Shown: positions 2,905-22,521 of the stretch, piece by piece
How the letters are laid out: every line of letters starts with the position of its first letter
Position numbering within the stretch: position 1 is the first letter of the stretch
Made by a program: the position numbers and the translations under genes
Notes under the pieces: generated by a model
The model's database searches: none
Seen by the model: only the letters and a program-made list of their open reading frames with translations
Told to the model about the DNA's origin: nothing
NCBI GenBank assembly: GCA_947455165.1
Contig: CANGMP010000014.1
Span: forward strand, 1-33,535
Reading direction: 5' to 3'
Source: Acidimicrobiaceae bacterium
GTDB lineage: Bacteria; Actinomycetota; Acidimicrobiia; Acidimicrobiales; RAAP-2
DNA length: 33,535 nt

Positions 2905-3131
2905 TTGACTACGCTCCTTTTACTTAGGGGTACCAGGTCCACGCCGTGCGGGCCCAGTGGGTTACAACGAAGAATTCGGCGGATCGCGAGGTAGGTTCCC
3001 CGTCCGGCGCCGTGGACTTCCAGGGCCTCAACGGCGTACTGCGAACAGGTGGGGTAGAACCGGCAGGGACTGGGTCGACCACCCATCAGGGATTGGTAGC
3101 CCCGAACTCCGGCGCGCAGCCAGCGGGCCAT
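2901..3131 (-). CDS. yidD: Membrane protein insertion efficiency factor YidD
   Basis: YidD is a small membrane-associated helper of YidC-dependent insertion. The product has the diagnostic [11 protein letters not shown] and [14 protein letters not shown] motifs. I place the start at ATG 3131 (MARWLRAG, 76 residues), which is the usual family length and begins 10 bases after the rnpA stop. The frame is open further upstream, to 3224, but that would overlap rnpA and add a non-family extension. No clear Shine-Dalgarno precedes 3131. It overlaps yidC by GTGA. Confidence 0.9.
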
Positions 3132-3141
3132 CCGGCTGGAT

Positions 3142-3462
3142 TCAGCCTTTGGCGAGTCCACTGAGAGCTCGGTTGAGATGTGTTCGGAGATCGTCATACG
3201 AGAGTTGATCCGTTCCAATACCACACTTGATCAGGTATGTTCCATGCGCCAGTGGCTCACTACGTTCTTGGACAATCGCACGAAGGCGGCGTCGAATCTT
3301 GTTTCGAACTACCGCATTTCCAACGTGACGACCAATGGCGTAGGCCACTGCAGCCGGATGGTCGCTAGCTACGAAGGACAGCCTTAGAGGTCCGCTTTTA
3401 CCCCGATAATCAGGGTTTTTGAGGGCCGAAAACTGCCGACGGAGACTAACCCGCTCCGGCAC
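3142..3462 (-). CDS. rnpA: Ribonuclease P protein component
   Basis: RnpA is the protein subunit of RNase P, which with its RNA trims the 5' leader of precursor tRNAs. The 106-residue product carries the basic RNR signature [14 protein letters not shown] at residues 48-61. It starts with GTG at 3462, 7 bases after the rpmH stop, the conserved rpmH-rnpA order. The length is near the family norm of about 110-120. Confidence 0.95.
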
Positions 3463-3469
3463 GCCAGGA

Positions 3470-3604
3470 CTAAACCGTGATCGAGTGGCGGCCCTTGTCG
3501 CGGCGGGCCTTCAAAATGGCACGACCGGCGCGGGTGCTCATACGGGCACGGAAACCGTGCGTACGCTGGCGCTTGCGCTTATTTGGTTGGTAAGTACGCT
3601 TCAC
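3470..3604 (-). CDS. rpmH: 50S ribosomal protein L34
   Basis: L34 is a small basic protein of the large ribosomal subunit. The 44-residue product begins [20 protein letters not shown] after the initiator and contains [13 protein letters not shown], both diagnostic. I chose GTG at 3604 because L34 proteins begin at this KRT(Y/F)QPN sequence and GAGGA lies 4 bases upstream. A longer open frame to 3679 is not supported. It is the first gene of the leftward operon and diverges from dnaA. Confidence 0.96.
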
Positions 3605-3678
3605 AAAATCCTCGATTCGATCCTGGGCTGACGATGCCACCATGACCCCGGGGGTCGGGCGTCGAAGCCACGGCCACA

Positions 3679-3684
3679 AGTCTA
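3679..3684 (-). promoter_or_regulatory. Possible -10 element for the rpmH operon
   Basis: TAGACT on the minus strand matches the TAnnnT form of an actinobacterial housekeeping -10 box, about 75 bases before the rpmH start. No good -35 hexamer is seen at the expected distance, so this is tentative. Confidence 0.3.
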
Positions 3685-3728
3685 GCCCAGCATCGGCCCC
3701 TCCTTGGGCGAGTGGTCACAAAGTGGTG

Positions 3729-3789
3729 TAGCGTGACTGCTCCCTGAGCGAATAATCGCTCGGCAACGGGCTTGCTGGCCTGTTGATAA
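3729..3789 (+). promoter_or_regulatory. dnaA control region: possible -10 box, inverted repeat and one DnaA box
   Basis: TAGCGT at 3729-3734 is a plausible -10 for dnaA. GAGCGA (3746-3751) and TCGCTC (3756-3761) form an inverted repeat with an ATAA loop. TGTTGATAA at 3781-3789 differs by one base from the DnaA-box consensus TGTGGATAA and lies 29 bases before the dnaA start, a position suited to autoregulation. Function is inferred from sequence only. Confidence 0.4.
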
Positions 3790-3817
3790 GTTTTTCAGCA
3801 CTTTGGTGGAGGAAGTG

Positions 3818-5179
3818 GTGTCAGAAGGTCTCGCGGTCTACCAACAATGGAGAAATGCCGTACAAAGTAAGTCCTCTGCTCCTGCCTGGAACGCAACCCT
3901 GAGCTCAACCACCTTTGTGGATTATTCAGATTTCGTCCTGTTAATTGGTGTTCCGAGCCAAGTCCAGGCCAATCAGATAAATAGTCGCCACCTTCCCCTG
4001 CTCGAGCAAGAACTTCGTCACATTGTGGGGGAGCAGGGCAGTATCAAGGTCAAGATCGACGACGGCTTTGACACAGTGGTCTCGACCGAGGTCGCGCCTG
4101 CGGTGGAGCGAGAAGTATCGGTGGCCCCGGTCGCTCCGGCGCCCAAGGGCCAGAGTCTCGACCCGCGAATGACTTTTTCGAGTTTCGTTACCGGAACTTC
4201 CAACCGCATGGCCAAGGCCGCGGCCGAATCGGCGGCGGAACGCCCGGGCCGGGACTACAACCCCTTGTTTATCTACGGAAAGTCTGGTCTCGGCAAGACC
4301 CACCTCCTGCACGCCATTGGCAACTACGTCCAGCACCACTGGCCCGAAAAGCAAGTTCTCTACGTCACCACCGAGACATTTCTGAACGATTTCATTCGAT
4401 CCGTCAGAGAACAGAGCCAGCTTTCGCTCCATGAGCGTTACCGGTCTGTCGACGTCCTTCTTATTGACGACATTCAATTCATGATTCCTCGAGGCGAGGG
4501 ATTCCACGAAAACGTCTTTCACACCTTTAACACCCTCCACGGCGCCGGAAAGCAGATCGTCTTAACTTCCGACCAGTCGCCACGTGACATGGACCGGCTC
4601 CAGGACCGGCTTCGCTCCCGTTTGCTCCAAGGGCTCATTGTCGAGGTGGGCCAGCCCGACCTCGAGACCCGAATCGCGATTTTGCAGACCAAGGCCGAGC
4701 GGGAAGGGGTTGAGATCCCAAACGACGTCATTGAGTACATCGCGAATCGCGTCCGGGACTCAATTCGTGAGCTCGAGGGCTCAATCACCATGCTGCGGGC
4801 CCATTCCCAGCTTCTCGAAGAGAAGATTGACCTGGAGTTCGCTAAGCGCCACCTGGGTGGCCTCGGTCGAGACCAGATGGTCCTCAAGCCCAGCCACATC
4901 ATCGACGCTGTCGCGGAACGGTTTGGCTTTAGCGCCACCGAGATTCGAGGACCCCGGCGGGTCCGGCCCTTGACCCACGCCCGCCACGTCGCGATGTACC
5001 TAGTGCGCGAGCTCTTGCCTCAATCGTCGTATCCCGTAATCGCCAAGGAATTCGGGGACCGCAATCACACGTCAGTTATCAGTGCGGTTGACAAGATAAG
5101 GGGCGAGATGAAGACCGATCGAGAGCTGGCACAGCACATCGTCGATCTCACTAACGACATCACTAACGGAATGTATTAA
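3818..5179 (+). CDS. dnaA: Chromosomal replication initiator DnaA
   Basis: DnaA binds origin boxes, forms an ATP-bound filament and melts oriC. I start it at GTG 3818 because GGAGG lies 5 bases upstream; the frame is open back to TTG 3803, but that would place this site inside the gene. The 453-residue product has an N-terminal domain (about 1-85), a short linker rich in Ala, Val and Pro, an AAA+ core with Walker A GKSGLGKT (154-161) and Walker B VLLIDDI (213-219), and a C-terminal DNA-binding domain with DRNHTSVISAVDKI (about 414-427). The linker is much shorter than in many actinobacteria. It is divergent from rpmH and followed by the proposed oriC. Confidence 0.97.
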   Translation: MSEGLAVYQQWRNAVQSKSSAPAWNATLSSTTFVDYSDFVLLIGVPSQVQANQINSRHLPLLEQELRHIVGEQGSIKVKIDDGFDTVVSTEVAPAVEREVSVAPVAPAPKGQSLDPRMTFSSFVTGTSNRMAKAAAESAAERPGRDYNPLFIYGKSGLGKTHLLHAIGNYVQHHWPEKQVLYVTTETFLNDFIRSVREQSQLSLHERYRSVDVLLIDDIQFMIPRGEGFHENVFHTFNTLHGAGKQIVLTSDQSPRDMDRLQDRLRSRLLQGLIVEVGQPDLETRIAILQTKAEREGVEIPNDVIEYIANRVRDSIRELEGSITMLRAHSQLLEEKIDLEFAKRHLGGLGRDQMVLKPSHIIDAVAERFGFSATEIRGPRRVRPLTHARHVAMYLVRELLPQSSYPVIAKEFGDRNHTSVISAVDKIRGEMKTDRELAQHIVDLTNDITNGMY

Positions 5180-5431
5180 GGAAAGAGGGACAAACGCTGC
5201 GGAGAACCTGTGGATGGCCTCTGGGAAACCAGATCGAAATCCACATCAAGTGAGACTTAGAAGTTGAGTCTTGAAAGAGTTGGGCACACCCCTGTCACTT
5301 TTGACGGTGATACTTGAACCCGCTCTATCAGGAGTATTGCGAAACAACCCGCAATCCACAGGGCTACTACTACTAAGTACTTCTTATTGAACAAAATCCC
5401 CATAGCCTCAGTCCCAACGAAGGGAACCACA
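5180..5431 (+). other. oriC: Probable origin of replication (oriC)
   Basis: This 252-bp gap between dnaA and dnaN has no gene and becomes AT-rich towards dnaN. Three sites carry the TCCACA core of a DnaA box: 5209-5217 (minus, CCATCCACA), 5237-5245 (AAATCCACA) and 5352-5360 (CAATCCACA), each two mismatches from TTATCCACA. Directly after the last come GGG (5361-5363) and four CTA triplets (5364-5375), then an AT-rich stretch. In Bacillus subtilis a DnaA box, a GC patch and triplets in this same order form the unwinding element. Location and motif support oriC; the boxes are weak and few. Confidence 0.75.
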
Positions 5432-6529
5432 ATGAAGTTCAAATCAGAGAAGGATGTCTTTGTTGAAGCGCTCGCTACCGCGAGCCGCGTGGTGGGTCGT
5501 ACCTCTGGCGCCACCCAGGGCATCTTGCTGGCGCTCACGGGCAACCAGCTCACGGTGACCGGAACCGACCTTGACACCACCGCCCGAGTCAGCCTCGACG
5601 TCATTGGTCACGAAGACGGAGCTGTGGTCGTTCCCGCACGTTTGCTCGTTGATGCCGTCCGCCTCCTCGACGCTGGTGCGGTGACCGTGGAGTCCAAGGA
5701 TGAAAAGGTTGAGATCAAGTTGGGTAAGGCCAACTACTCACTTCGTACCTACGGCCTCGTTGACTTCCCGAAGCTCCCTCCCGTTCCCGCACCATCAGCA
5801 ACACTGGCAGCACTCGACTTCGTTGAGGGTCTCAGCCAGGTAGTTCGAGCTTCTTCGAACGACGACGCCCGCCCACTCCTGACTGGTGTGCTCTTTACGA
5901 GCGAGGGTGGCACGGTTCGCATGGTGGCGACCGACTCATATCGACTGGCCGTTCGTGACCTCATGAGCACTCAGAAGCTGCCCACCGATCAAGACCTCCT
6001 CATCCCCTCGCGCGCGCTCAGCGAACTCCAACGAGCCGCGTCGAACCTGCCAGTTGACAGCACCATTGGCGTGTCGGTCTCTGAGTCGGAGGTGACCTTC
6101 GTCGCTGGTAACACCAGTATCTCCACGCGACTGATCGATGGCAACTACCCCGACTACCGCCCACTGATTCCGCCGAGCTACCCCAACCAGTTGCGCGTCG
6201 GCAAGGACACACTGATGAGCTCACTCAAGCGCATGAAGGTTCTCGCGAAGGACCCAACGTCATCTGTTCGGCTCACTATGAACGAACGCTCGATTGACAT
6301 CACCACGCAAAGTGCCGATCAGGGCGTTGTTGTTGACAGTGTCGATGCCGACTACAACGGTGAAGAGATCACCATCGCCTTTAACCCCACGTACCTCATG
6401 GAGGGTGTCGAGGCCGTTCCGGGTGACGAAGTTGTTCTCGAGATGACCGACGCCAGTCGGGCTGCCATGCTCCACGGAGTAGAAGACAGCAACTTCCGCT
6501 ACCTACTCATGCCCGTTCGCGTCCAGTAA
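5432..6529 (+). CDS. dnaN: DNA polymerase III subunit beta (sliding clamp)
   Basis: The beta clamp is a ring dimer that tethers DNA polymerase to DNA. The 365-residue product starts MKFKSEKDVFVEAL and ends YLLMPVRVQ, the typical C-terminus that contributes to the partner-binding pocket. I chose ATG 5432 because AAGGGA lies a few bases upstream and the sequence then matches the family start; upstream in-frame codons would run into the AT-rich oriC segment. The length is normal for three clamp subdomains. It is followed 12 bases later by recF. Confidence 0.97.
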   Translation: MKFKSEKDVFVEALATASRVVGRTSGATQGILLALTGNQLTVTGTDLDTTARVSLDVIGHEDGAVVVPARLLVDAVRLLDAGAVTVESKDEKVEIKLGKANYSLRTYGLVDFPKLPPVPAPSATLAALDFVEGLSQVVRASSNDDARPLLTGVLFTSEGGTVRMVATDSYRLAVRDLMSTQKLPTDQDLLIPSRALSELQRAASNLPVDSTIGVSVSESEVTFVAGNTSISTRLIDGNYPDYRPLIPPSYPNQLRVGKDTLMSSLKRMKVLAKDPTSSVRLTMNERSIDITTQSADQGVVVDSVDADYNGEEITIAFNPTYLMEGVEAVPGDEVVLEMTDASRAAMLHGVEDSNFRYLLMPVRVQ

Positions 6530-6541
6530 TACACCGCCTCG

Positions 6542-7621
6542 GTGGGCCTGGTCGAACTTCAACTCCAAAACTTTCGAGTCTTCGAAAGTCGACACGTAAC
6601 CCCGCCGGCCGATGCCGTCACGGTCTTTTTGTCACCGAACGGCACGGGTAAAACCTCAATCCTCGAAGCAGTCTTTGCTCTCGCGACCGGCGGGTCGTTT
6701 CGCACCACTTCGGCCGGAGATCTACTGCGCACCGGCAGCGACAGCGCGTCGGTTTACGGGCTCGCCTTTAACGGCCCGCGCCGGCTCGAAATGAAGCTAG
6801 CTCTCAAGCGAGGTGCCCGCAACGTCACAAAGAAACTCACCATTAACGAGCAACGACCCAAAACCTACGCCGATATTTACGACGCTTTTCCCGTGACTAT
6901 CTTCACGCCCGAGGGTGTCGACATGGTCCGCCGCGAGCCGAGTGGCCGGCGGGATTTCCTCACTCGACTCATAGTGAATCTCGAACCACGAACCAGTGAC
7001 GTCGTTGAACGATTTGAGCGAGTCTTAAAACAGCGCAACGCCCTGCTGAAGTCGTTCGCTGGCGAACTCCCCACGTCGTCACAGCGAGACGAACTCGCCA
7101 TTTGGACGAGCGAGTTCACCGAAGCGAGTGAACTCGTCGTGGCCGCTCGCGAGCGGGTACTAGGACCCCTGACTGAATTAACCAACTCCTACTACGGAGA
7201 AATCGCCGGCGGGAAGGGTACGGTCACACTTCGCTACGAACAATCGTGGGACGGCGAGTTGGCGCGAGCGCTCGACGAGTGCGCTCGCGACGATCGATAC
7301 CGGGGTCACACGACGGTGGGTCCACATCGGGACGACATTCTGATTTCTCTCGACGGGCGAGACGCTCGTCGCCAAGCGAGCCAGGGGGAGCAGCGCAGCG
7401 TGGCGCTCGCGATGCTGTTGGCCGGCGATGCGCTGGTACGCAGCGAACGGTCGATTTCCCCGCTGCTCATGCTCGACGATGTCTTCAGCGAGCTCGACCC
7501 GGTTCGTTGCTCGCGCCTACTTCACCTTCTCCCACCAGGACAAACACTGGTTACCACCGCATCACCACTGCCCGAAGAGCTGCTCCCGGCAGTCATAATT
7601 GACTTGTCGAAGGGGGAGTAG
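6542..7621 (+). CDS. recF: DNA replication and repair protein RecF
   Basis: RecF is an SMC-like ATPase that works with RecO and RecR to load RecA at single-strand gaps. The 359-residue product begins LVELQLQNFRVFES and has a Walker A region SPNGTGKTS (31-39), an ABC-type signature QASQGEQRSVALAM (about 277-290) and Walker B LLMLDDVFSELD (308-319). The first Gly of Walker A is Ser31, which is unusual (see findings). GTG 6542 is the chosen start, 12 bases after dnaN. The stop TAG shares its last base with the next gene's GTG. Confidence 0.95.
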   Translation: MGLVELQLQNFRVFESRHVTPPADAVTVFLSPNGTGKTSILEAVFALATGGSFRTTSAGDLLRTGSDSASVYGLAFNGPRRLEMKLALKRGARNVTKKLTINEQRPKTYADIYDAFPVTIFTPEGVDMVRREPSGRRDFLTRLIVNLEPRTSDVVERFERVLKQRNALLKSFAGELPTSSQRDELAIWTSEFTEASELVVAARERVLGPLTELTNSYYGEIAGGKGTVTLRYEQSWDGELARALDECARDDRYRGHTTVGPHRDDILISLDGRDARRQASQGEQRSVALAMLLAGDALVRSERSISPLLMLDDVFSELDPVRCSRLLHLLPPGQTLVTTASPLPEELLPAVIIDLSKGE

Positions 7622-7923
7622 TGGCACGGCGATCTCCCGAACCAGAAAAGCTCGGCCAAACGCTGCGCGCGCTGATCGGCCGTTTCCAACACGTCGACCT
7701 TGACGTTATGCCGACCATTCTGGAGCGCTGGCCCGAACTCGTCGGGGGTGCGCTGGCCGATCGATGCCAACCCGAAGTTGTGCGCGCCGGGGTGCTCTTC
7801 GTGCGAGTTCCGACCGGTGCCTTCGCACAGAAAATCTCACTCGAGAGTGAACGAATTCTCGAAGGATTCGCCGACCTCGGCGAAGCTCGCCCGCAAAGCA
7901 TCACCGCCGTCGTCCGCGGCTGA
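7621..7923 (+). CDS. DciA/DUF721-family protein, likely replicative helicase loader
   Basis: This 100-residue protein lies between recF and gyrB, the usual place for the actinobacterial DUF721 gene. Members related to DciA help load the DnaB helicase where DnaC/DnaI are absent. Family-like features are the N-terminal helical part (LGQTLRALIGRF, about 11-22), W39 in the ERWPELVGG segment and the C-terminal LFVRVPTGAFAQKISLESERIL. The GTG start at 7621 overlaps the recF stop by one base and has GGGGGAG just upstream. Assignment is from length, motifs and position; helicase loading is inferred from the family. Confidence 0.8.
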   Translation: MARRSPEPEKLGQTLRALIGRFQHVDLDVMPTILERWPELVGGALADRCQPEVVRAGVLFVRVPTGAFAQKISLESERILEGFADLGEARPQSITAVVRG

Positions 7924-8025
7924 TTTTCTTTTCAAAATTCATTGAGAAGCGACCGTTAGGACCCCCGAATGTCGTACCTAAACCGGTAAGATTTAGGACA
8001 GTCAAAGCGCATCTACGCGCACTGA

Positions 8026-9993
<1,968 letters not shown>

Positions 9994-10009
9994 GAGCGGA
10001 GAAACGATC

Positions 10010-12484
10010 ATGGCCAAGAAAAAAGACGACGCCGCACCCCAGCCCGAAGAGGCAGTCTTCGGGTACATCGAACCCGTTGAAATCAACTTCGAGATGGAGC
10101 GCTCCTTCCTGGAGTACTCCATGTCGGTCATTGTTTCGCGGGCTCTCCCGGACGTCCGCGACGGCCTGAAGCCAGTTCACCGCCGCATCCTCTACTCCAT
10201 GTTCGACCAGGGTCTGCGCCCCGACCGTCCGCACACCAAGTGCGCCAAGGTTGTCGGTGAAGTCATGGGTACCTATCACCCCCACGGTGACAGCGCTATC
10301 TACGACGCCCTGGTTCGTATGGTGCAGGACTTCGCGATGCGCCACCCGCTCATCGATGGTCACGGCAACTTCGGTGGAACCGGACCAGACGAAGGCGCCG
10401 CCGCCATGCGCTACACCGAGTGTCGCCTCGCGCCGCTCGCCCTCGAGCTACTCGACTCAATCGACGAAGAGACCGTCGACTTTGAGCCCAACTACGACAA
10501 CACCTCGGCCCAGCCAACGGTGCTCCCGGCCCGCTACCCGAACCTGCTGGTCAACGGCTCACAGGGAATTGCCGTTGGCATGGCGACGCGTATTCCCCCG
10601 CACAACCTCGGCGAAGTAATTGACGCCGTCTTGCACGTCTTGGACAAGCCCGAGGCCACGCCGGACGACCTCATGGCCTACGTCAAAGGTCCGGATTTTC
10701 CGACCGGCGCCCAGATTCTCGGTCGCCAGGGCATCCTCGACGCGTACCGCACTGGTCGCGGTTCGATCAAGATGCGCGCCGTTGCCGAGATCGAAGAGAA
10801 CAAGGGTGACACCCGCATTGTGGTCACCGAGTTCCCGTACGAAGTCTCCGTCGAATCGGTCGAAGAGAAGATCTACGACCTCGTTAAGTCCGGCGACCTC
10901 GACGGCATCTCGGCCGTGCAGAACGACTCGGCGAGCCGCAAGTCTCGTCTCGTCATCCGATTGAAGCGTGACGCCAACGCCAACGTGGTGCTTAACAAGC
11001 TCTACAAGAACACGTCGCTGCAGACGACCTTTGCCGTCAACATGCTGGCCCTCGTCGACGGCGTGCCCCGCACCTTGACCTTGGCCCAGGCCATCTCGCA
11101 CTACGTCGATCACCAGATCGAAGTCATCACACGCCGCACGCAGTTCCGCTTGCGTAAGGCCCAGGCCCGTGCCCACATCGTCGAAGGTCTCTTGAAGGCC
11201 ATCGACATGTTGGACGCGGTCATCGCCGCCATTCGTGGCTCCGACGACCGTCCGGCGGCCCGTATTGCGTTGATGGCGGCCCCCTTTGAGTTCAGCGAAG
11301 AGCAGGCCAACCACATTCTCGACATGACCCTCGGTCGACTCACCCGTCTCGGACGTAGTGAGCTCGAAGAGGAGATGAAGAAGCTCCGCGAGACCATCAA
11401 GGAACTCGAGTCGATTCTCGGTAGCGACAAGAAGCTCCGCGGTGTTATCGCCGAAGAGATCTCGGCCATTCGCGCCAAGTATGCCAATGAGCGTCGCACC
11501 GCCATCGTGAACGACCCGGGTGAACTGGGCGTCGAGGACTTGATCGACGACGAAAACGTCGTGATCACCTTGACCAAGTCCGGCTACATCAAGTCGGTTT
11601 CGGCCGATGCCTTTAAGTCCCAGGGCCGCGGTGGCCGTGGTGTGACGGCGGCGAAGCTGAAGGACGAGGACTTCGTTGACCAGATCGTCAATACGACGAC
11701 GCACGCCTTTTTGCTGCTGTTCTCGAACCGCGGTCGAGTCTTCCGTCTGCGCGCCCACGAGATTCCGATGAAGGAACGTCAGGCCAAGGGCACGGCCATC
11801 GTGAACTTGCTCAACCTGCAGCCGAACGAAACCATCCAGGCGATTGTTTCGACGACGGACTTCCCCGAGGACGAGTACCTCTTGTTCGCGACGGCCGACG
11901 GCACGGTCAAGAAGACCTCGTTCTCCGAGTACGACAAGTCACGCCGTGAAGGTTGGATCGCCATCAAGCTGCGCGACACCGACGAAGTCGTTCGCGTTAT
12001 CTCCGTGAAGGAAGGTGACGAGGTCATGCTCGTGACCTACCGCGGTACCGCGATTCGCTTCCCAGCCGACGAGGCCCGCGCCATGGGCCGTGACTCGACC
12101 GGTGTGCGCGGTATCAAGCTGCGTGGCGATGACAAGGTGATTTCGCTCGACGTCGTTCGCGATGACTCGGACCTGTTCTGTGTCACCGACGCCGGCTACG
12201 GCAAGCGTGTCAAGGTGGAGCGTTTCACGACTCAGGGACGAGGCGGCATGGGCGTACGCGCCATCAAGCTCACCGCGGCCCGAGGTCACGTGGCCGCGGC
12301 ATTCATGGTCACCATCAAGGACGAGTTGCTGCTCGCCTCATCGGGCGGCGTCATGATTCGAACCCCCGCGCGAGAAGTTTCGTCGCAGGGTCGAGACGCC
12401 ACTGGTGTTCGCGTCATGAACCTGGACGACGGCCACACCGTCGCGACGGCCGCCGCCGTGCCGTTTGAAGAGGAAGAGGCCTAG
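10010..12484 (+). CDS. gyrA: DNA gyrase subunit A
   Basis: GyrA cuts and rejoins DNA through an active-site tyrosine and wraps DNA with its C-terminal beta-pinwheel. The 824-residue product has the catalytic tyrosine Y135 in RYTECRLAP and the quinolone region HPHGDSAIYDA with S95 and D99, the residues found in susceptible enzymes. A GyrA-box-like QGRGGRG lies at 538-544; the second residue is Gly, not the usual Arg. GGAG lies upstream of ATG 10010. The C-terminus is acidic (FEEEEA). Its stop codon overlaps the convergent DsbA-like gene by four bases inside a perfect palindrome. Confidence 0.98.
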   Translation: MAKKKDDAAPQPEEAVFGYIEPVEINFEMERSFLEYSMSVIVSRALPDVRDGLKPVHRRILYSMFDQGLRPDRPHTKCAKVVGEVMGTYHPHGDSAIYDALVRMVQDFAMRHPLIDGHGNFGGTGPDEGAAAMRYTECRLAPLALELLDSIDEETVDFEPNYDNTSAQPTVLPARYPNLLVNGSQGIAVGMATRIPPHNLGEVIDAVLHVLDKPEATPDDLMAYVKGPDFPTGAQILGRQGILDAYRTGRGSIKMRAVAEIEENKGDTRIVVTEFPYEVSVESVEEKIYDLVKSGDLDGISAVQNDSASRKSRLVIRLKRDANANVVLNKLYKNTSLQTTFAVNMLALVDGVPRTLTLAQAISHYVDHQIEVITRRTQFRLRKAQARAHIVEGLLKAIDMLDAVIAAIRGSDDRPAARIALMAAPFEFSEEQANHILDMTLGRLTRLGRSELEEEMKKLRETIKELESILGSDKKLRGVIAEEISAIRAKYANERRTAIVNDPGELGVEDLIDDENVVITLTKSGYIKSVSADAFKSQGRGGRGVTAAKLKDEDFVDQIVNTTTHAFLLLFSNRGRVFRLRAHEIPMKERQAKGTAIVNLLNLQPNETIQAIVSTTDFPEDEYLLFATADGTVKKTSFSEYDKSRREGWIAIKLRDTDEVVRVISVKEGDEVMLVTYRGTAIRFPADEARAMGRDSTGVRGIKLRGDDKVISLDVVRDDSDLFCVTDAGYGKRVKVERFTTQGRGGMGVRAIKLTAARGHVAAAFMVTIKDELLLASSGGVMIRTPAREVSSQGRDATGVRVMNLDDGHTVATAAAVPFEEEEA

Positions 12485-12494
12485 GCCTCTTCCT
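12471..12494. repeat. 24-bp perfect palindrome across the gyrA and dsbA-like stop codons
   Basis: The half-site AGGAAGAGGCCT is followed by its exact reverse complement, centred between 12482 and 12483. The central CTAG supplies TAG stops for both convergent genes. Each arm encodes the acidic C-terminal residues of one protein (EEEEA and KEEA). With a CTAG loop each transcript could form a 10-bp stem, but no T-tract follows on either side. Confidence 0.9.
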
Positions 12495-13137
12495 TCATTC
12501 GGCGGGCCCAGGCCCGCTCCAGAACGGAAAGAATCTCGTCGGCGCCCTGGGCGCCCATGACCATGAAGCGACCGTCGATCAAGATGCTTGGCACGCCCGT
12601 GATTCCGAGCTCCATGGCGATCTCTTCGTCCTCACGAACATTGGTGGCGTAACTATCACTCGCCAACACCTCGGCCGCCCCGGTGACTCCGAGTTCGCCC
12701 GCCAGCGCGAGGAGCTGGTCGTGATCGCCGGGACGCTGACCCTCGCAGAAGTAGGCCTGCAACAGTCGCTCCAGGAGTTCGGCCTCGAGTCCCTGCGTGG
12801 CGGCCAGTGCCAAGAGGCGGTGGGCATCAAAGGTGTTGCCCGGTTGGCAGCGCTCCATGTCCCAGGTCATGCCAAACGTGGCGGCCGTGTGGCTAAGGCG
12901 TGCGTTGTTGGCCTCGGCCTGCTCCACGCTCATCCCGTACTTCGTGGCGAGCAGCTCGGGCAACGTGCGGTTATAGCTCGCGGGGGCGTTGCGGTCGAGC
13001 TCAAAGGCTCGGTGATGGACCTCAACGGTGACCTCGGGGTCGAACTGTTCGAGGGCCGCTTCGAGCTGACGCTTGCCGAGATAACAGAAGGGGCAGACAA
13101 TGTCACCCCACACATCGATACGCAAAACCTTCTCCAT
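12481..13137 (-). CDS. DsbA-family (FrnE-like) thiol oxidoreductase
   Basis: FrnE-like DsbA-fold proteins are cytoplasmic disulfide oxidoreductases or isomerases. The 218-residue product starts MEKVLRIDVWGDIVCPFCYL, with the CxxC active site at C15-C18, an inserted helical domain (about 60-165) and the conserved cis-proline segment GVPSILIDG (P183) followed by VMGAQ. There is no signal peptide. I chose ATG 13137 because the family begins a few residues before the first beta strand; the frame runs further upstream but into the divergent gene. Its physiological substrate is unknown. Confidence 0.88.
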   Translation of the reverse strand: MEKVLRIDVWGDIVCPFCYLGKRQLEAALEQFDPEVTVEVHHRAFELDRNAPASYNRTLPELLATKYGMSVEQAEANNARLSHTAATFGMTWDMERCQPGNTFDAHRLLALAATQGLEAELLERLLQAYFCEGQRPGDHDQLLALAGELGVTGAAEVLASDSYATNVREDEEIAMELGITGVPSILIDGRFMVMGAQGADEILSVLERAWARRMKEEA

Positions 13138-13172
13138 GGAACCATCGTGACACAGCGACCGGCCAGGTCGGG

Positions 13173-13178
13173 CAGAAT
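13173..13178 (+). promoter_or_regulatory. Possible -10 box of a leaderless transcript (CoA-transferase)
   Basis: CAGAAT ends 6 bases before the ATG at 13185 and there is no Shine-Dalgarno. This spacing would start transcription at or next to the start codon, as in leaderless actinobacterial mRNAs. The first base departs from TAnnnT. Confidence 0.35.
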
Positions 13179-13184
13179 AGAGAG

Positions 13185-14483
13185 ATGGCAATGCGTGAAT
13201 TAACGGCAACCGAAGCAGTTCAGTTGCTGAACCCGACTGACACGGTCGGGCTCGGGCTCGGGCCGGCCAACCCCCACGGTCTTCTAAAGGCCATGTCGGC
13301 CCGCACGGACTGGGAACAGCTGACCGTCGGCGGAGCACTGATTCTCGGGCTCTTTGAACTCTTCACGCACCCCAATGTTTCCTATCGGGCCGGCTTCTTC
13401 GGGCCGGCCGAGCGCTACTACGCGAGTGTCAACACCAAGGTCGAACACGTGCCGGCCGGCTTTCGCCAGTTCGCCCCCATCCTGCGCCGGATGGCCCCGC
13501 GCGTGATGATGGTCCAGGCCACGCCGCCGGACCAACACGGCTTTTGCAGTCTCTCGCTGCACTGCGGCGCCACGCTCGATGAACTGAAGGCGGCCGGTGC
13601 TGATCCGAATCGCCTCCTCATCGTGGAGACGTCGCCCCACTTCCCGTGGACCTCGGGCGTACCGGGATTCGAGAACCGCCTCTCGGTTGACGAAATCGAC
13701 GTTCTCGTGGTCGGTGATGAGGTGCCCTTTGAGCTGCCGTCGGAAGCGGCCACTGAGGCCGACATGGCGATTGCGCAACAAACGCTGCCCTTCATCCACG
13801 AGCGCTCGACGCTCCAGACCGGTATTGGCGCCATCCCCAACATGGTGGCCCAGGCCCTCGCCGAGCGTCCGGGCGGCGACTACGGCATCCACTCTGAGAT
13901 GTTCACCGACGGGCTGTGGAAGCTTTCGGAAAGTGGCAAGGTCTCCAATGCCCACAAGGGCATCTACGAAGGTTTCTCGCTCACCACCTTCGCCCTCGGC
14001 TCGGCCGGCCTCTACGAGTGGCTGCACGAAAATCGCACGGTGCGCTTCGCGCCCGTCTCGGTCGTGAACGATCCAACCATCATTGGCCGCAACGAGAACT
14101 TCGTCTCCATCAACGGCGCCATCTCGGTTGACCTGTTTGGACAAGTAGTGGCCGACTCGGTCGCGGGTCGTCAGGTCTCTGGTGTGGGTGGTCACGAAGA
14201 CTTCGTGGCCGGTGCGGACTTGGCACTCGATGATGTGTCGTTAATCTGCTTACGCTCCACTATTGAAGTGAACGGTGAACTCGTGAGTCGCATTCCAGCC
14301 CAACTACCCCTTGGCTCGGTCGTCTCCACGCCCCGACACCACACCGGCGTGGTCGTCACCGAGTTTGGTGCGGCCGACCTGCGTGGCACGACCGTAACGG
14401 AACGAGCTCACCTCTTGGCCGATATTGCCCACCCCAACTTCCGCGAGGAACTCCACACCGCTGCTGAAACACTCGGTCGATAA
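13185..14483 (+). CDS. Acetyl-CoA hydrolase/transferase-family (4-hydroxybutyrate-type) CoA-transferase
   Basis: Enzymes of this family move CoA from an acyl-CoA to an acid through a glutamyl-CoA intermediate, or hydrolyse acetyl-CoA. The 432-residue product has the family motif GIGAIPNM (213-220), the segment GIHSEMFTDG with E238 at the place of the catalytic glutamate, and GVGGHEDF (333-340). The length fits 4-hydroxybutyrate CoA-transferase relatives. Start ATG 13185 has a second ATG two codons on. It diverges from the DsbA-like gene across 47 bases, and its stop TAA shares a base with the next gene's ATG, so the two are probably co-transcribed. The actual acid substrate cannot be read from the sequence. 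Confidence 0.88.
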   Translation: MAMRELTATEAVQLLNPTDTVGLGLGPANPHGLLKAMSARTDWEQLTVGGALILGLFELFTHPNVSYRAGFFGPAERYYASVNTKVEHVPAGFRQFAPILRRMAPRVMMVQATPPDQHGFCSLSLHCGATLDELKAAGADPNRLLIVETSPHFPWTSGVPGFENRLSVDEIDVLVVGDEVPFELPSEAATEADMAIAQQTLPFIHERSTLQTGIGAIPNMVAQALAERPGGDYGIHSEMFTDGLWKLSESGKVSNAHKGIYEGFSLTTFALGSAGLYEWLHENRTVRFAPVSVVNDPTIIGRNENFVSINGAISVDLFGQVVADSVAGRQVSGVGGHEDFVAGADLALDDVSLICLRSTIEVNGELVSRIPAQLPLGSVVSTPRHHTGVVVTEFGAADLRGTTVTERAHLLADIAHPNFREELHTAAETLGR

Positions 14484-16081
14484 TGCTCATTGTCCGCGAT
14501 CTCGCGATTGAAATCGGCACGCGCCGCATGCTGACCCCGACCCACTTGACGGTGGGAGAGGGCGAGAAGGTCGGCATCGTCGGCCGCAACGGTGCCGGCA
14601 AGTCGACCCTGCTCTCCGTACTGCTCGGCGAGGGCGGCGAACACCTCCGTGTGGAGGGCACCGTCCAGCGCTTCGGTCTGTGGGCCCACTTGCCCCAGGA
14701 GCCAGTGCCCGGCGGCCTGGGCGTCGAGCCCAACGGGCTCTCCCACGTCTTGTCGGCCCGTGGTCTGGACCGTCTCGACGCCGATATGCACGCCGCCCGC
14801 CAGGCCATGTCCGCCGACCCGTCGTCAGAGAACATTGAACGGTTCACCGAGATTGAAGAGAAGTTTCGCGACCTCGGTGGCTACGAGGCCGAGTCGGAAG
14901 TGGCCCGCCTCGCGGCCGGTCTCGGCCTGGACGAGGAGTATCTCCTTGAAGATTTGAACTCGCTCTCCGGTGGTCAACGACGTCGCATCGACCTCATGCG
15001 CGTTCTCTACGAACAACCCGAGACCATGGTGCTCGACGAACCGACGAACCACCTCGACAAGGCGGCCAAGCGCTGGCTCTTTGACGAACTCGAGAAGTTT
15101 CCTGGCACAATCCTCGTCATCAGCCACGACCTCCCCCTGCTCGACAAGGCCATTGACCGCGTCTTGTCGCTGCGCGAGGGTCGACTGCGCGAGTACAAGG
15201 GCAACTACACCAAGTTCTTGGAGCAAGAAGAGATTCAGATCGCCGGAGAAGAGAAGTTGGCCTCCCGCCAAGACGCCGACATCGAGCGACTGAGCCAACT
15301 CGCGAACTCGATGCGTGGTCAGACCGAAAAGCGCGCCCGACTGGCCAAGGTGCTCGACAACCGCGTTGACCGCCTGAAGGACTCGCGCGTGGAAGTCACG
15401 CAGCGCGAGCGCAAGGTCAAGTTCAAGCTGCCCGAGCCCCCACGAAGTGGCGACGTTCCGTTGACGGCTTCGGACATCGCCGTCTCCTACGGTTCGACCC
15501 AGATCTTGAAGCGGACCAGCTTTATTACTAAGCGCGGCGACCGCATTTTGATTGTCGGTCGCAACGGCGCCGGAAAGAGCTCCCTGCTGCGTTGTCTCGC
15601 CGAGGCGCAGACGCCAACGAGCGGGGGAGTCAAGCTTGGGGCCAACGTCGTTCGTGGTTACTTCGCCCAGGAGCACGAAAACCTCGATTCATCAAAGACA
15701 GTTCTCGCCCACCTCGATAACGCGACGGTGGAGACCGAGGTCCAACGTCGGGCCCTACTCGGCGCCTTCGGCCTCAAGGGCTCGGCGGCGCTGCAGACTC
15801 CCGACACCCTCTCGGGTGGTGAGCGGGCCAAGTTGGCCCTCGCCATGCTGGCCGCTTCCGAGGCCAACCTCTTGATCTTGGACGAACCGACGAACAACCT
15901 GGACCCTCGTTCGGTCGAAGCCGTTGGCGAGATGCTCCGCGGCTGGAGCGGCACCATCATCGCCGTCTCCCACGAACGGGCCTTCGTGGAGGCCCTCGAA
16001 CCGACCCACGCCGTCTTGCTGCCGGAGGAGTACTTCGACCTGTGGCGTGATGACTACATGGACATGGTCGAGCAGCGCTAG
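14483..16081 (+). CDS. ABC-F family ATPase (ribosome-associated type)
   Basis: ABC-F proteins have two ATPase domains and no membrane domain; known members act at the ribosomal E site in translation or antibiotic protection. The 532-residue product has Walker A GRNGAGKST (34-42) and signature LSGGQ (161-165) in the first half, a charged linker rich in Arg, Lys and Glu (about 250-320) and Walker A GRNGAGKSS (359-367) with LSGGE (443-447) in the second. Both Walker B regions read LDEPTN. The start overlaps the CoA-transferase stop by one base (TAATG). It lacks the features that would place it in a specific EttA or resistance subgroup. Confidence 0.92.
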   Translation: MLIVRDLAIEIGTRRMLTPTHLTVGEGEKVGIVGRNGAGKSTLLSVLLGEGGEHLRVEGTVQRFGLWAHLPQEPVPGGLGVEPNGLSHVLSARGLDRLDADMHAARQAMSADPSSENIERFTEIEEKFRDLGGYEAESEVARLAAGLGLDEEYLLEDLNSLSGGQRRRIDLMRVLYEQPETMVLDEPTNHLDKAAKRWLFDELEKFPGTILVISHDLPLLDKAIDRVLSLREGRLREYKGNYTKFLEQEEIQIAGEEKLASRQDADIERLSQLANSMRGQTEKRARLAKVLDNRVDRLKDSRVEVTQRERKVKFKLPEPPRSGDVPLTASDIAVSYGSTQILKRTSFITKRGDRILIVGRNGAGKSSLLRCLAEAQTPTSGGVKLGANVVRGYFAQEHENLDSSKTVLAHLDNATVETEVQRRALLGAFGLKGSAALQTPDTLSGGERAKLALAMLAASEANLLILDEPTNNLDPRSVEAVGEMLRGWSGTIIAVSHERAFVEALEPTHAVLLPEEYFDLWRDDYMDMVEQR

Positions 16082-16108
16082 TTCGCTTTCCCGTACAGTC
16101 GTAGTTCT

Positions 16109-17077
16109 ATGAAGATTCTCATTATCGGTGGTTCCTCCTTCGTTGGTCGCGGTATTGCATTGGCCGCTCACGAGCGTGGTCACGACGTCACGGTGTTCAA
16201 TCGCGGCACGACCCCGACCGACCTGCCCGAGTCAATTACTCGCCTCGTTGGTAATCGTCAAACCGACCTGTCGGCCCTGTCGAGCGGAACCTACGACGCC
16301 ACCATCGACGCGATCGCGTACCAGCGCCGAGACGTCGAACTGCTCCACGAAGCGCTGGGCGAACGGGCCGGGTACTACCTGCAGATCTCGTCGATCTCGG
16401 CCTACCAAGACCCGGCCGACGTCAATGCCGATGAATCAACGCCCCTCCTCGAGCTCGGTGACACTGACCCCAACGCCCCGGTGACCGGCGCCACGTACGG
16501 CATCTTGAAGGCCGAGTGCGAGCGGGCCGCCACTGAACTGTTCGGGACCAACATCGGCATCGTTCGGCCAACCTTCGTGGTCGGTGGCCACGACAAGACC
16601 TTCCGCTTCCCCTACTGGGTGGCTCGCATCGCCCGCGGCGGCCGCGTGGCCTTTCCCGGTCCGTCCACGAACGCTCTTCAGTGGATTGACGCGCGAGACC
16701 TTGGTGAGTTCTGTGTTCTGTTGACCGAAGGTCGTTACGCCGGGGCGGTGCACGCCCTCGGAACGTCTCCGGCGACGAGCTTCGGCGAGACGCTTAGCCG
16801 TATTGCGAGCCACGTGGCGCCCGAGGGCACGACCCTCGTAGAGATCGACCCCGCCCGTTTGACCGATGCCACGTGGTATTCGAAGTTTCCACTGTGGACG
16901 GGTGGTTCGAGCGAGACGGCGCTCTCGATGAGTAACGCCAAGGCGCTTTCGCTGGGCTTGACGCTGCGCACTCTCGAAGTGAGCGTTGATGACACGCTGG
17001 CCTGGTTTGGTGACCGGTCCTGGCCGGAGCACTGGCTGAGCGAAGCTGACGAGCAGAAACTCATCGACGAGGCGTAG
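16109..17077 (+). CDS. NAD-dependent epimerase/dehydratase (extended SDR) family protein
   Basis: The 322-residue product has a Rossmann-fold N-terminus ILIIGGSSFVGRG (3-15), a Ser-rich strand QISSIS (92-97) and the catalytic YxxxK pair Y130/K134 in TYGILKAE, followed by IVRPTFVVG. The GGSxFVGR form of the dinucleotide motif is typical of a group related to chloroplast CSP41-like and isoflavone reductase-like proteins. The substrate is unknown. TACAGT at 16094-16099 could be its -10 box, giving an almost leaderless mRNA. Confidence 0.85.
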   Translation: MKILIIGGSSFVGRGIALAAHERGHDVTVFNRGTTPTDLPESITRLVGNRQTDLSALSSGTYDATIDAIAYQRRDVELLHEALGERAGYYLQISSISAYQDPADVNADESTPLLELGDTDPNAPVTGATYGILKAECERAATELFGTNIGIVRPTFVVGGHDKTFRFPYWVARIARGGRVAFPGPSTNALQWIDARDLGEFCVLLTEGRYAGAVHALGTSPATSFGETLSRIASHVAPEGTTLVEIDPARLTDATWYSKFPLWTGGSSETALSMSNAKALSLGLTLRTLEVSVDDTLAWFGDRSWPEHWLSEADEQKLIDEA

Positions 17078-17369
17078 CCCCAGGCGAAAGTACAAAGTCG
17101 TCGGTATAAAGTTCAGCTCTGGCCTTTTCGCTTCGCGGACTTAGAACAGTCATTTATCCCACCCACGATCTCGGCGCCTCGAAGGCGTGGTGGGCTTTCT
17201 TTTCAATCCCAATTTCACCCTGGGTTAGAGCGTTTCAAAGTGAGTAGAACCTGAGACTTTTCGGCCTAAAGAAGACCATCCCGCTCTGCGCTTCTCGCCG
17301 GTTCTAGCCTCGCCGTTAGGTGAATCGTAGATAGTTACGGTTCGACTAATTCCTACTTAGGAGGCCTTC
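17078..17369. other. Non-coding interval with a terminator and a leader
   Basis: No gene is visible in these 292 bp. TATAAA at 17105-17110 looks like a -10 box without a matching -35. A good terminator hairpin ends at 17203. The remaining 165 bp up to the membrane protein start have no recognisable riboswitch and end with TTAGGAGG as a strong ribosome binding site. A short RNA from about 17118 to 17203 is possible but I could not match it to a known family. Confidence 0.4.
17158..17203 (+). terminator. Intrinsic terminator downstream of the epimerase gene
   Basis: CCCACC-C-ACG (17158-17167) pairs with CGTGGTGGG (17186-17194), leaving one bulged C, and is followed by CTTTCTTTT. The loop is 18 bases and may fold internally. 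Confidence 0.75.
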
Positions 17370-17732
17370 ATGCTGGCAATTGCGACCACCGGTTCATCAA
17401 CCTCGGTACTTGGAACCGCCGTGGTCACCTTGGCCATCGTGATCTTCTACCTTGTCTCGGAGTGGAAGGTCTTCGCCAAGGCTGGCCAACCAGGTATTGC
17501 CGCCATTGTTCCAATTTGGAACCTCTACGTCCTGTGCAAGATCGCCAAGCGACCCGGCTGGTGGACAATCCTCATGTTTGTTCCGTTTGTCAACATCGTG
17601 GTCTATTTCATTGTGGGCAATAACATCGCCAAGAATTTCGGCAAGGGAACGGGCTTTGGCCTTGGCCTGGTCTTGCTCCCAATCTTCTTCGTGCCGGCAC
17701 TTGGCTTCGGAGACGCCACGTACCGCCAGTAA
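17370..17732 (+). CDS. DUF5684-type small membrane protein
   Basis: This 120-residue protein has three hydrophobic segments (about 11-31, 64-85 and 92-112). The recognisable core is EWKVFAKAGQPGIAAIVPIW, then KRPGWWTILMFVPFVNIVV and KNFGKGTGFGLGLVLLP with a final LGFGDATY. These are the features of the DUF5684 family, sometimes found fused to signal peptidase I, but here it stands alone. Function is unknown. TAGGAGG lies 6 bases before the ATG. It has its own long leader and is preceded by a terminator, so it is probably transcribed alone. Confidence 0.8.
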   Translation: MLAIATTGSSTSVLGTAVVTLAIVIFYLVSEWKVFAKAGQPGIAAIVPIWNLYVLCKIAKRPGWWTILMFVPFVNIVVYFIVGNNIAKNFGKGTGFGLGLVLLPIFFVPALGFGDATYRQ

Positions 17733-17864
17733 GCACTGGGCCTTACAGCAATCGGCCGGATACGCCGAGCCTTGCGAACTCAATCTTGGAGTAGTTCAAA
17801 CCTCGATACCTTGCGGGTCGATTTGACCACCCGAAATCTGGCTCTCCTTGTGTCTCACGGGTGA

Positions 17865-17870
17865 TACATT
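17865..17870 (+). promoter_or_regulatory. -10 box of a probable leaderless vapB transcript
   Basis: TACATT matches TAnnnT and ends 6 bases before the ATG of the antitoxin gene, with no Shine-Dalgarno. Transcription would begin at about the start codon. Confidence 0.45.
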
Positions 17871-17876
17871 AACGAC

Positions 17877-18113
17877 ATGAGCGAAGTAACTATCCGAGAA
17901 CTACGTAATCACGGGGGGGATGTCGTGAAACGGGTGGTCGGGGGTGAGACGCTCATTCTTACCCGCGATGGTGAGCCCGTCGCTGAACTGCGGCCACTGC
18001 CACGACCCGGGTTGTCAGCCGAAAACCTGCTGAAGCGCTGGAAGTTCCTCCCCGAAGTTGATGCAGCGCTACTGCGCCGCGACATCGACGAAATTTTGGA
18101 CCCGACACTATGA
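17877..18113 (+). CDS. Antitoxin of the Phd/YefM-like (VapB) type
   Basis: This 78-residue protein starts MSEVTIRELRNHGGDVVKRV and continues GETLILTRDGEPVAELRPLP, the typical DNA-binding fold of Phd/YefM antitoxins. The C-terminal half (about 45-78, LLKRWKFLPEVDAALLRRDI) would wrap the toxin. It overlaps the PIN toxin gene by four bases (ATGA), the usual antitoxin-first arrangement. Such antitoxins bind their own promoter with the toxin and repress it, so autoregulation is expected. Confidence 0.88.
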   Translation: MSEVTIRELRNHGGDVVKRVVGGETLILTRDGEPVAELRPLPRPGLSAENLLKRWKFLPEVDAALLRRDIDEILDPTL

Positions 18114-18544
18114 GCGACAACCGAGCATGGAAGGGACTGCTCGATACCTCAACGGTCATTTTGCTGCCCAGAATTGCATCACCCGACTTCTTACCGGAAG
18201 TACCCCAGATTTCCGCGATCACTCTGGCGGAACTATCAGTAGGACCGCTAGCGACAGACGATCCGCAAATTCAAGCAGCGCGCCTCGCCCACCTACAGCA
18301 AGCCGAAGCCGACTTCGAACCACTGCCGTTTGATGCCGCAGCTGCTCGAGCCTTTGGACGCGTCGCAGCGTCACTGCGTCAACGAGGAAAAAAGCCAGCC
18401 GTTCGTGCTTATGACGCACTCATTGCGGCAACCGCAATTGGTAACGGGATTCCGCTCTATACGTGCAACCCGAAGGACTTTGAAGGCATCGACAATCTAA
18501 ACGTTGTCGCAGTACCTCATCCAGACCACCGAGGCATTTCATAA
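18110..18544 (+). CDS. PIN-domain ribonuclease toxin (VapC family)
   Basis: VapC toxins are magnesium-dependent RNases that often cut tRNA or 23S rRNA. The 144-residue product shows the acidic PIN residues: D12 in LLDTS, E41 in LAELSVG, D102 in AYDALIAATA and D123 in TCNPKDF. It is coupled to the antitoxin by ATGA overlap. The stop codon lies one base from the CCA end of the convergent tRNA-Leu, so the pair has been placed tightly against a tRNA gene. The RNA target cannot be deduced. Confidence 0.9.
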   Translation: MSDNRAWKGLLDTSTVILLPRIASPDFLPEVPQISAITLAELSVGPLATDDPQIQAARLAHLQQAEADFEPLPFDAAAARAFGRVAASLRQRGKKPAVRAYDALIAATAIGNGIPLYTCNPKDFEGIDNLNVVAVPHPDHRGIS

Positions 18545-18545
18545 C

Positions 18546-18631
18546 TGGTGGGCGAGGCGGGACTTGAACCCGCACAACCTTTCGATTACTGGCACCTGAA
18601 GCCAGCGCGTCTGCCATTTCGCCACTCGCCC
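18546..18631 (-). tRNA. tRNA-Leu (anticodon CAG), CCA encoded
   Basis: On the minus strand GGGCGAG pairs with CTCGCCC in the acceptor stem, followed by A and CCA. The anticodon loop TTCAGGT between CTGGC and GCCAG gives anticodon CAG. The long variable arm marks a class II tRNA. As I recall, a tRNA-Leu also sits beside and divergent from fhaA in Mycobacterium, so the gene is probably ancestral here and the TA pair is the newcomer. Confidence 0.96.
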
Positions 18632-18719
18632 GAATGGACTTCTTACTTTAGTTGCAATTGGCCGGGGCCAAAATTGCCGGCACGATTTCCCCCTATTTCA
18701 CCGGTACTCTGTACTGCGT

Positions 18720-19367
18720 ATGGCACTGAAGAACGTAGAGAGTCGGCTCGAGCGATTGTTTGATCGCACGCTTTCCAAGGGCCTCAAGTCCTACGTCCAG
18801 CCCATCGAAATCGCCCAGCGAATTGCTCGAGAGCTCGACCTCGCGGCCCGAATGGGTCCCCGCAGCACCGTGGCTCCAAACGAGATCAGGGTCTATCTCT
18901 CTTCCGAAGACACTCCGCGCTTTAGCGGATTTGAGCAGGCCACCATTGACGAACTGGCGGCCTCGGCTCGCGAACACGCCCTCCAGGAGGGCTATGACTT
19001 CGTTGGTCCGCTTTCGGTACAGATTTTCGAAGACGCTTCGTTGACACTCGGCCAGGTCGGTATTCGAGTCAACTTCGTCACTGGTCGCGCCCAACCCCGC
19101 CTGGTTTCGTCCACGGGCACGAGCTATCCCCTCACCGAGGCGGCCCAGCTCATCGGCCGGACCTCCGAGTGTGCCATCGTGGTGGCCGACTCCAACGTGT
19201 CGCGCCGTCACGCCGAGGTTTGGCTTACGCCCGACGGTGTAGCCATACGCGACCTTGGTTCGACGAACGGAACGATTGTCAACGGCCAGCGCATCGAGGC
19301 TGTCCTGCTTTCGCCACACGACGACATCGTGATTGGCAATCAGTCGTTCCGAATCGAAATGGCCTGA
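18720..19367 (+). CDS. fhaA: FhaA-type protein: DUF3662 plus FHA domain
   Basis: FhaA proteins bind phosphothreonine through a C-terminal FHA domain and connect Ser/Thr kinases with cell-wall synthesis. The 215-residue product begins with the DUF3662 domain (about 1-115, MALKNVESRLERLFDRTLSK), then a short linker and an FHA domain (about 130-213) with GRTSECAIVV, SNVSRRHAEV and DLGSTNGTIVNG. It is shorter than mycobacterial FhaA, which has a long proline/glutamine-rich linker. It opens the fhaA-fhaB-pstP-pbpA-pknB cluster and diverges from tRNA-Leu. Confidence 0.92.
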   Translation: MALKNVESRLERLFDRTLSKGLKSYVQPIEIAQRIARELDLAARMGPRSTVAPNEIRVYLSSEDTPRFSGFEQATIDELAASAREHALQEGYDFVGPLSVQIFEDASLTLGQVGIRVNFVTGRAQPRLVSSTGTSYPLTEAAQLIGRTSECAIVVADSNVSRRHAEVWLTPDGVAIRDLGSTNGTIVNGQRIEAVLLSPHDDIVIGNQSFRIEMA

Positions 19368-19368
19368 C

Positions 19369-19812
19369 TTGCTAATCGCCTCGTCGTCTTACGCCACCAT
19401 TATTCGGCCGCTCCAGGTCCTGGTGCTCCTCGGCATCGTGCTCTTCTTTGCCCGGGTGCTCAACGTGGCCACTCGAGAGATGCGTCCGGTCAAGGAGAAC
19501 GAAGGCCGCCGCGGCCGCCGTCGATCTCTGGCCCTTTCATTCATGGAGCCCGAAGCTCAGGCCGGCGAACGTATCGAAGTAAGCAATCCCGTCGTGCTTG
19601 GTCGGGGTGCTCCAAGCGACATCATCCTCGACGACACATTTCTCTCGACCCAACACGCCCGCTTCTCGGTTGACGAGGGTGACCTCTTCATTGAGGACAT
19701 GGGTTCTCGCAACGGCTCGTACGTAAACGCCGAGCCGGTCATTCACCGCACCCAGTTGTTGAAGGGTGACGTGATTCAGATCGGCAACGTCATTCTCGAG
19801 GTCGTTCGATGA
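19369..19812 (+). CDS. fhaB: FhaB/FipA-type membrane protein with FHA domain
   Basis: This protein has one N-terminal membrane helix (about 12-30 from the chosen start, RPLQVLVLLGIVLFFARVL), a basic stretch and a C-terminal FHA domain with VLGRG, DTFLSTQHARF and DMGSRNGSYVN. FhaB proteins recruit phosphorylated division and cell-wall partners. I chose TTG at 19369, one base after the fhaA stop (147 residues). No ATG exists in frame before the helix, and the frame is open upstream into fhaA. The end overlaps pstP by ATGA. Confidence 0.85.
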   Translation: MLIASSSYATIIRPLQVLVLLGIVLFFARVLNVATREMRPVKENEGRRGRRRSLALSFMEPEAQAGERIEVSNPVVLGRGAPSDIILDDTFLSTQHARFSVDEGDLFIEDMGSRNGSYVNAEPVIHRTQLLKGDVIQIGNVILEVVR

Positions 19813-20981: not shown

Positions 20982-20987
20982 TTACCC

Positions 20988-22487: not shown

Positions 22488-22521
22488 TTAATCAAAATAA
22501 AGGCGTAGGCTAAAAGCACTT

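Follow-up and report, generated by a model that had tools for sequence, protein, structure and literature searches.

The intergenic region between dnaA and dnaN of an Acidimicrobiaceae bacterium, probably uncultured and aquatic, is with high confidence predicted to be the origin of its chromosome (oriC), which a basal unwinding system (BUS) would open. The region spans 252 bp (positions 5180–5431, + strand) of the 33,535-nucleotide stretch of DNA that was analysed (the window), and holds a cluster of DnaA boxes and the unwinding module. This reading, which agrees with the original prediction of a Bacillus-type box/GGG/CTA unwinding element, fits the sequence because of the location of the module, the order of its parts, their strand polarity and spacing, the low stability of the duplex and the conservation of the whole. 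The parts, their register, their conservation, the duplex stability and the changed residues of DnaA are all direct observations. A BUS has been predicted in 85% of bacterial origins (PMC8287927). The module in itself is an unsurprising example of a widespread system; what is new is the set of clade-specific changes in DnaA and in its boxes. The idea of the BUS is thereby extended to an uncultured actinobacterial lineage.

The genes around the region form a classical origin neighbourhood. dnaA (3803–5179, + strand) encodes a protein of 458 amino acids, with a TTG start as called, that matches the Pfam families Bac_DnaA (3.9e-62) and Bac_DnaA_C (4.3e-22), and dnaN (5432–6529, + strand) encodes the Pfam DNA_pol3_beta domains. 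Beyond dnaN lie recF, a DciA-like gene, gyrB and gyrA; to the left of dnaA, in the opposite direction, lie rnpA, yidD, yidC, jag and rsmG. The DciA-like gene (7621–7923, between recF and gyrB) is a candidate helicase loader adjoining the origin. As is expected of an oriC, DnaA boxes are clustered in the non-coding DNA next to dnaA.

The core of the module consists of a downstream DnaA box, CAATCCACA (5352–5360, + strand; consensus order-wide at the same place), a GGG spacer (5361–5363, + strand), four perfect CTA repeats (5364–5375, + strand) and then an AT-rich run, and the letters and coordinates originally given for these parts were exact. The repeats are DnaA-trios, 5′-CTA-3′ on the strand of the box being 3′-GAT-5′ on the opposite strand. 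The original inventory correctly listed the downstream box but overlooked a degenerate one directly upstream of it, CAACCCGCA (5345–5353, + strand), whose tandem position is conserved in the genus and the order. The published search rule for a BUS, which finds this site, calls for a DnaA box with at most two mismatches within 16 bp of trios (PMC8287927); CAATCCACA has two mismatches and lies 3 nt from the trios. Further criteria are at least three trios of the form 3′-NAN-5′, with GAT preferred, and a second tandem box with at most four mismatches, which is common but not obligatory. The site has four perfect 3′-GAT-5′ trios of the right polarity, opposite the box strand, and CAACCCGCA just falls within the limit for the second box, with four mismatches to TTATCCACA. 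This upstream box is strong in relatives. Its bad degeneracy in the window counts against the BUS reading, for in B. subtilis scaffolds the upstream box was the one that could not be dispensed with (PMC8287927).

The composite is rare as well as complete. (CTA)4 has a single match in the window with up to one mismatch allowed (0.01 expected from shuffles), and TCCACA-N3-(CTA)4 has a single match even at three mismatches (0 in 100 shuffles). When the 1.54-Mb assembly was searched with CCACA-N(2-6)-(CTA)3, the oriC site was the sole match, an absence elsewhere that is not absolute because the assembly is about 90% complete and in 94 contigs.

The original prediction had looked to relatives for the joint conservation of the box, the spacer at the GGG position and the triplets, and this was found on aligning 35 dnaA–dnaN gaps of the genus (29 relatives, five more and the window; one of them, L058, is a near-repeat of another, L003). 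The gap is 247–259 bp long in nearly all members. The tandem-box position is present in all 35, and box, 3-nt spacer and triplets stand at one register in every one; one gap scores a 0-nt spacer, only because its spacer reads CTA. Of the 34 members counted, 32 have three or more perfect YTA triplets at this register. The background DNA 60–110 bp upstream is just 40% identical between genus members, and the register of box and trios must therefore be under strong constraint.

Ranking of duplex stability placed the least stable, AT-rich stretch, a candidate DNA unwinding element (DUE), at 5364–5397. The 30-mer from 5364 is the seventh least stable among 33,505 in the window, and the least stable 30-mer of the region 3001–8000 begins at 5368. 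Easily melted DNA therefore adjoins the trios, as the BUS criteria ask. The coincidence of the trios with this minimum is also what would be seen if DnaA opened the origin mainly as an AT-rich element, by box-driven bending or looping, with the CTA run giving flexibility or low stability and not serving as a trinucleotide-specific ligand; the altered trio-guanine contacts of the window DnaA, R202 and E228 (see below), point the same way. This explanation is nevertheless unlikely, as no genus member departs from the triplet sequence or from its register to the box, whereas the adjoining AT-rich DNA is variable. Moreover, position 1 of the triplet is strictly C and not the more weakly paired T, which is contrary to selection for low stability alone.

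The layout of tandem boxes and trios was also found outside the genus, both in the remaining families of the order and in several further classes of the phylum, typically as TTGTCCACAATCCACA-N4-YTAYTA, with a 4-nt spacer and usually two perfect triplets. Most members of the order, and most of the genus, have 11 nt from the upstream box to the first trio, a distance that is retained because a 7-bp tandem offset with a 4-nt spacer became an 8-bp offset with a 3-nt spacer. In the window and its subclade a 7-bp offset is combined with the 3-nt spacer, giving 10 nt. The distance from box to dnaN varies among families, from about 50 to 134 nt. It is this variation, together with the co-occurrence of tandem TCCACA boxes and trios across many families, that makes it very improbable that the conserved block chiefly serves dnaN, as its promoter or 5′ untranslated region, and resembles a BUS by accident. 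Such a role would suit the position of the block 57–87 nt upstream of dnaN, and closer to dnaN the genus also conserves CGTAACCTCAGTA and a GAAAGG stretch that resembles a ribosome site, but no −10 element was seen by eye at a suitable distance from the TTGACC-like starts.

GC skew failed as a local proof of the origin in this genus. The skew shift that the original prediction had looked for at this point was not seen in the genus: in one member (G269) skew stays flat for about 240 kb around the origin, and in the window it is weakly inverted on the dnaN side. There, on what is expected to be the leading-strand side, it is weakly negative over 5364–23500, the opposite of the usual sign. This flat or weakly inverted skew counts against the origin reading. 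In a complete 2.16-Mb genome from another family of the order (G139), the skew changes sign at dnaA, with positive values between dnaA and about 1.0 Mb and negative ones beyond (sampled at 20 points), and because of this the dnaA region is supported as the origin at the level of the order. That the true origin lies elsewhere and the dnaA–dnaN site is a relic, a reading that the uninformative skew of the genus would permit, is extremely improbable in view of the strict conservation in the genus, the single copy, the dnaA–dnaN context and the change of sign in the order relative.

Several other DnaA-box-like sites lie in the gap. TTCTCCGCA (5198–5206, − strand) has one mismatch to TTNTCCACA; CCATCCACA (5209–5217, − strand), the first box of the original prediction, has a genus-conserved position that reads (C/T)TGT(G/T)GAT; and AAATCCACA (5237–5245, + strand) stands where ATCCACAT is kept across the genus. 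Beyond the unwinding element is a weak box-like AAATCCCCA with C at position 7 (5394–5402, + strand), a site that reads (A)ATCCACAC or AACACAC in many relatives. Alignment and inspection of the sequences also gave an imperfect inverted CACA...TGTG element, CACACCCCTGTC (5285–5296), which is common to several other families of the order, where it reads ACACCCCTGTG. Just before dnaN, at 5402–5426, a genus-conserved CGTAACCTCAGTA-like stretch (CATAGCCTCAGTC in the window) and GAAAGG may form either a dnaN leader or a right-hand origin element.

No perfect TTNTCCACA box occurs in the 252-bp gap, so that the weakness of the boxes was rightly noted; their number was not, as six 9-mers differ from TTNTCCACA at no more than two positions (2.9 on average in shuffles, P about 0.05) where three TCCACA boxes had been counted. 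Nor are the boxes very few for an actinobacterial origin. Within two mismatches, the gaps of the genus hold 8.2 boxes on average and those of other order members 7.0, boxes are highly enriched in the gaps of most relatives, and the idea that there are too few was rejected, the count being ordinary for the group.

What does set the genus apart is how information is divided between boxes and trios. Column statistics were compared with those of 22 regular members of the order, seven irregular members being excluded. The downstream box holds 12.5 bits in the genus against 15.8 in the order, and the upstream box 5.1 bits overall (6.9 in members with the 8-bp offset) against 13.2, whereas the 12 trio columns hold 20.9 bits against 13.2. 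The bootstrap intervals of genus and order do not overlap for boxes or for trios. The trio figure of the genus could be raised by relatedness (background of 0.47 against 0.31 bits per column), but it would raise the box figures too, and these fall instead. In comparison with other members of the order, the genus has looser DnaA boxes and sharper trios.

The DnaA proteins of the genus are changed as well. Residues were placed by alignment to B. subtilis DnaA; D433 is numbered as in E. coli, and R202 as in B. subtilis. All 35 genus proteins carry D433N, H439S/A, R202H and K222R with a one-residue insertion, and another one-residue insertion before the helix-turn-helix. The window DnaA has N433, S439, H202 and R222, and also E228N, which is common to its own subclade. 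D433, which contacts position 7 of the box and is described as highly conserved in all bacterial classes (PMC8235120), is kept in every DnaA aligned from outside the genus, from 23 other members of the order and 27 further members of the phylum, the sister genus L064 included. A compensating change at box position 7 for D433N was looked for and not found, since each of the 35 genus members has A7 in its downstream box; despite the changes in DnaA, neither this base nor the trio guanine has changed or become less strict in the genus.

On the trio side, B. subtilis DnaA requires N187, I190 and the arginine finger R264 (PMC10721633, PMC8287927), and the window DnaA keeps all three; I193 is replaced by V. 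R202 and E228, which touch the trio guanine in the structure from B. subtilis (PMC10721633), are H and N in the window DnaA, a further point against the BUS reading. None of the trio-capturing residues N187, I190, I193, R202 and E228 is universally conserved (PMC10721633). The clade has altered DNA-reading residues of DnaA that are usually fixed, and has kept and sharpened the triplets. The genus is thus a natural experiment, in which residues for the box (D433, H439) and for the trio guanine (R202) have changed clade-wide and the trios have been retained. Because the boxes have loosened, the trios are regular and the residues that read both have changed, initiation in the genus probably depends on engagement of the trios to a greater degree than in the sister families. 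The original suggestion that this origin may rely mostly on the trio element thereby gains comparative support, short of proof, from lower box and higher trio information.

A further conserved element was found upstream of the boxes. It has the motif [AG][CTG]C[AT]G[GC], reading GATCAGG or GACCAGG in the genus and usually TGACCTGSG in the order, and is referred to here as GAYCWGS. The window copy is ATCAGG (5327–5332, + strand), whose C precedes the upstream box by 16 nt and the first trio by 35 nt. That C is generally 36 nt before the first trio, and 35 nt in the group of the window: of 22 order members, 19 have CWGS at 36 nt, and of 35 genus members, 34 have it at 35 or 36 nt, compared with about 0.2–0.5 per position anywhere else. 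Upstream of the boxes in the order, the best six columns hold 6.5 bits of information, whereas none of 2,000 circular-shift controls exceeded 2.6. The distance from GAYCWGS to the upstream box holds at 16 nt even when the box offset changes. By eye, similar copies were seen at 14–16 nt in other classes of the phylum.

GAYCWGS matches neither of the actinobacterial sites given in a review of origins, AdpA (TGGCSNGWWY) and MtrA (GTCACAGCG). It was also considered as a reverse-oriented DnaA box, which by eye fits some order members loosely and does not fit the genus copies, and as a −35 element, for which no −10 element was seen at a suitable distance. The open-access literature yielded no description of the element and no paper on Acidimicrobiia origins, an absence that is weak evidence. 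The element may be a docking site for another origin protein, or possibly a low-affinity DnaA site that helps to bring the first DnaA to the upstream box. The chances are even that GAYCWGS is a third, undescribed BUS module of actinobacterial origins and that the module of this genus has co-evolved with its altered DnaA, in which an otherwise fixed box-reading aspartate and a trio-guanine contact are changed. GAYCWGS suggests a conserved part of actinobacterial origins for which no assigned role was found in the literature.

A working order for the BUS may be proposed on the precedent of B. subtilis, from which binding, filament growth, base capture and opening are all drawn (PMC6669920, PMC8287927, PMC10721633). 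Domain IV of DnaA would bind the tandem boxes at 5345–5360, and a DnaA-ATP filament would then grow onto the opposite strand. The initiator-specific motif would capture the G-A pairs of the four 3′-GAT-5′ trios (5364–5375), and the least stable DNA would open toward dnaN, for helicase loading.

The closest precedent is the BUS of B. subtilis itself (incC DnaA-boxes 6/7 and DnaA-trios), which shares with the window the tandem co-oriented boxes, the short spacer, the 3′-GAT-5′ repeats opposite the box strand, the adjacent AT-rich DUE and the location between dnaA and dnaN. The window differs in its degenerate upstream box, its 3-nt spacer and its four identical trios, and in a DnaA with N433, S439, H202, N228 and R222 with an insertion. 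The BUS of other Acidimicrobiia and Actinomycetota (L032–L090) has the same tandem TCCACA pair, YTA triplets and upstream GAYCWGS, but mostly a 4-nt spacer, two perfect trios, strong boxes (TTGTCCACAATCCACA) and D433. In oriC2 of Clostridioides difficile (trio 5′-CACCTACTACTATTACTACTATGA-3′, PMC7561715), CTA/TTA triplets likewise stand directly before the DnaA-opened region in the dnaA–dnaN gap; that origin is bipartite, with many boxes, and its DnaA retains the equivalents of D433 and H439. The D433 position is naturally changed in Thermotoga maritima DnaA too (RSHPVV in the alignment), but its box, AAACCTACCACC, is wholly different (PMC4285127), whereas the box core in the window still ends in CACA.
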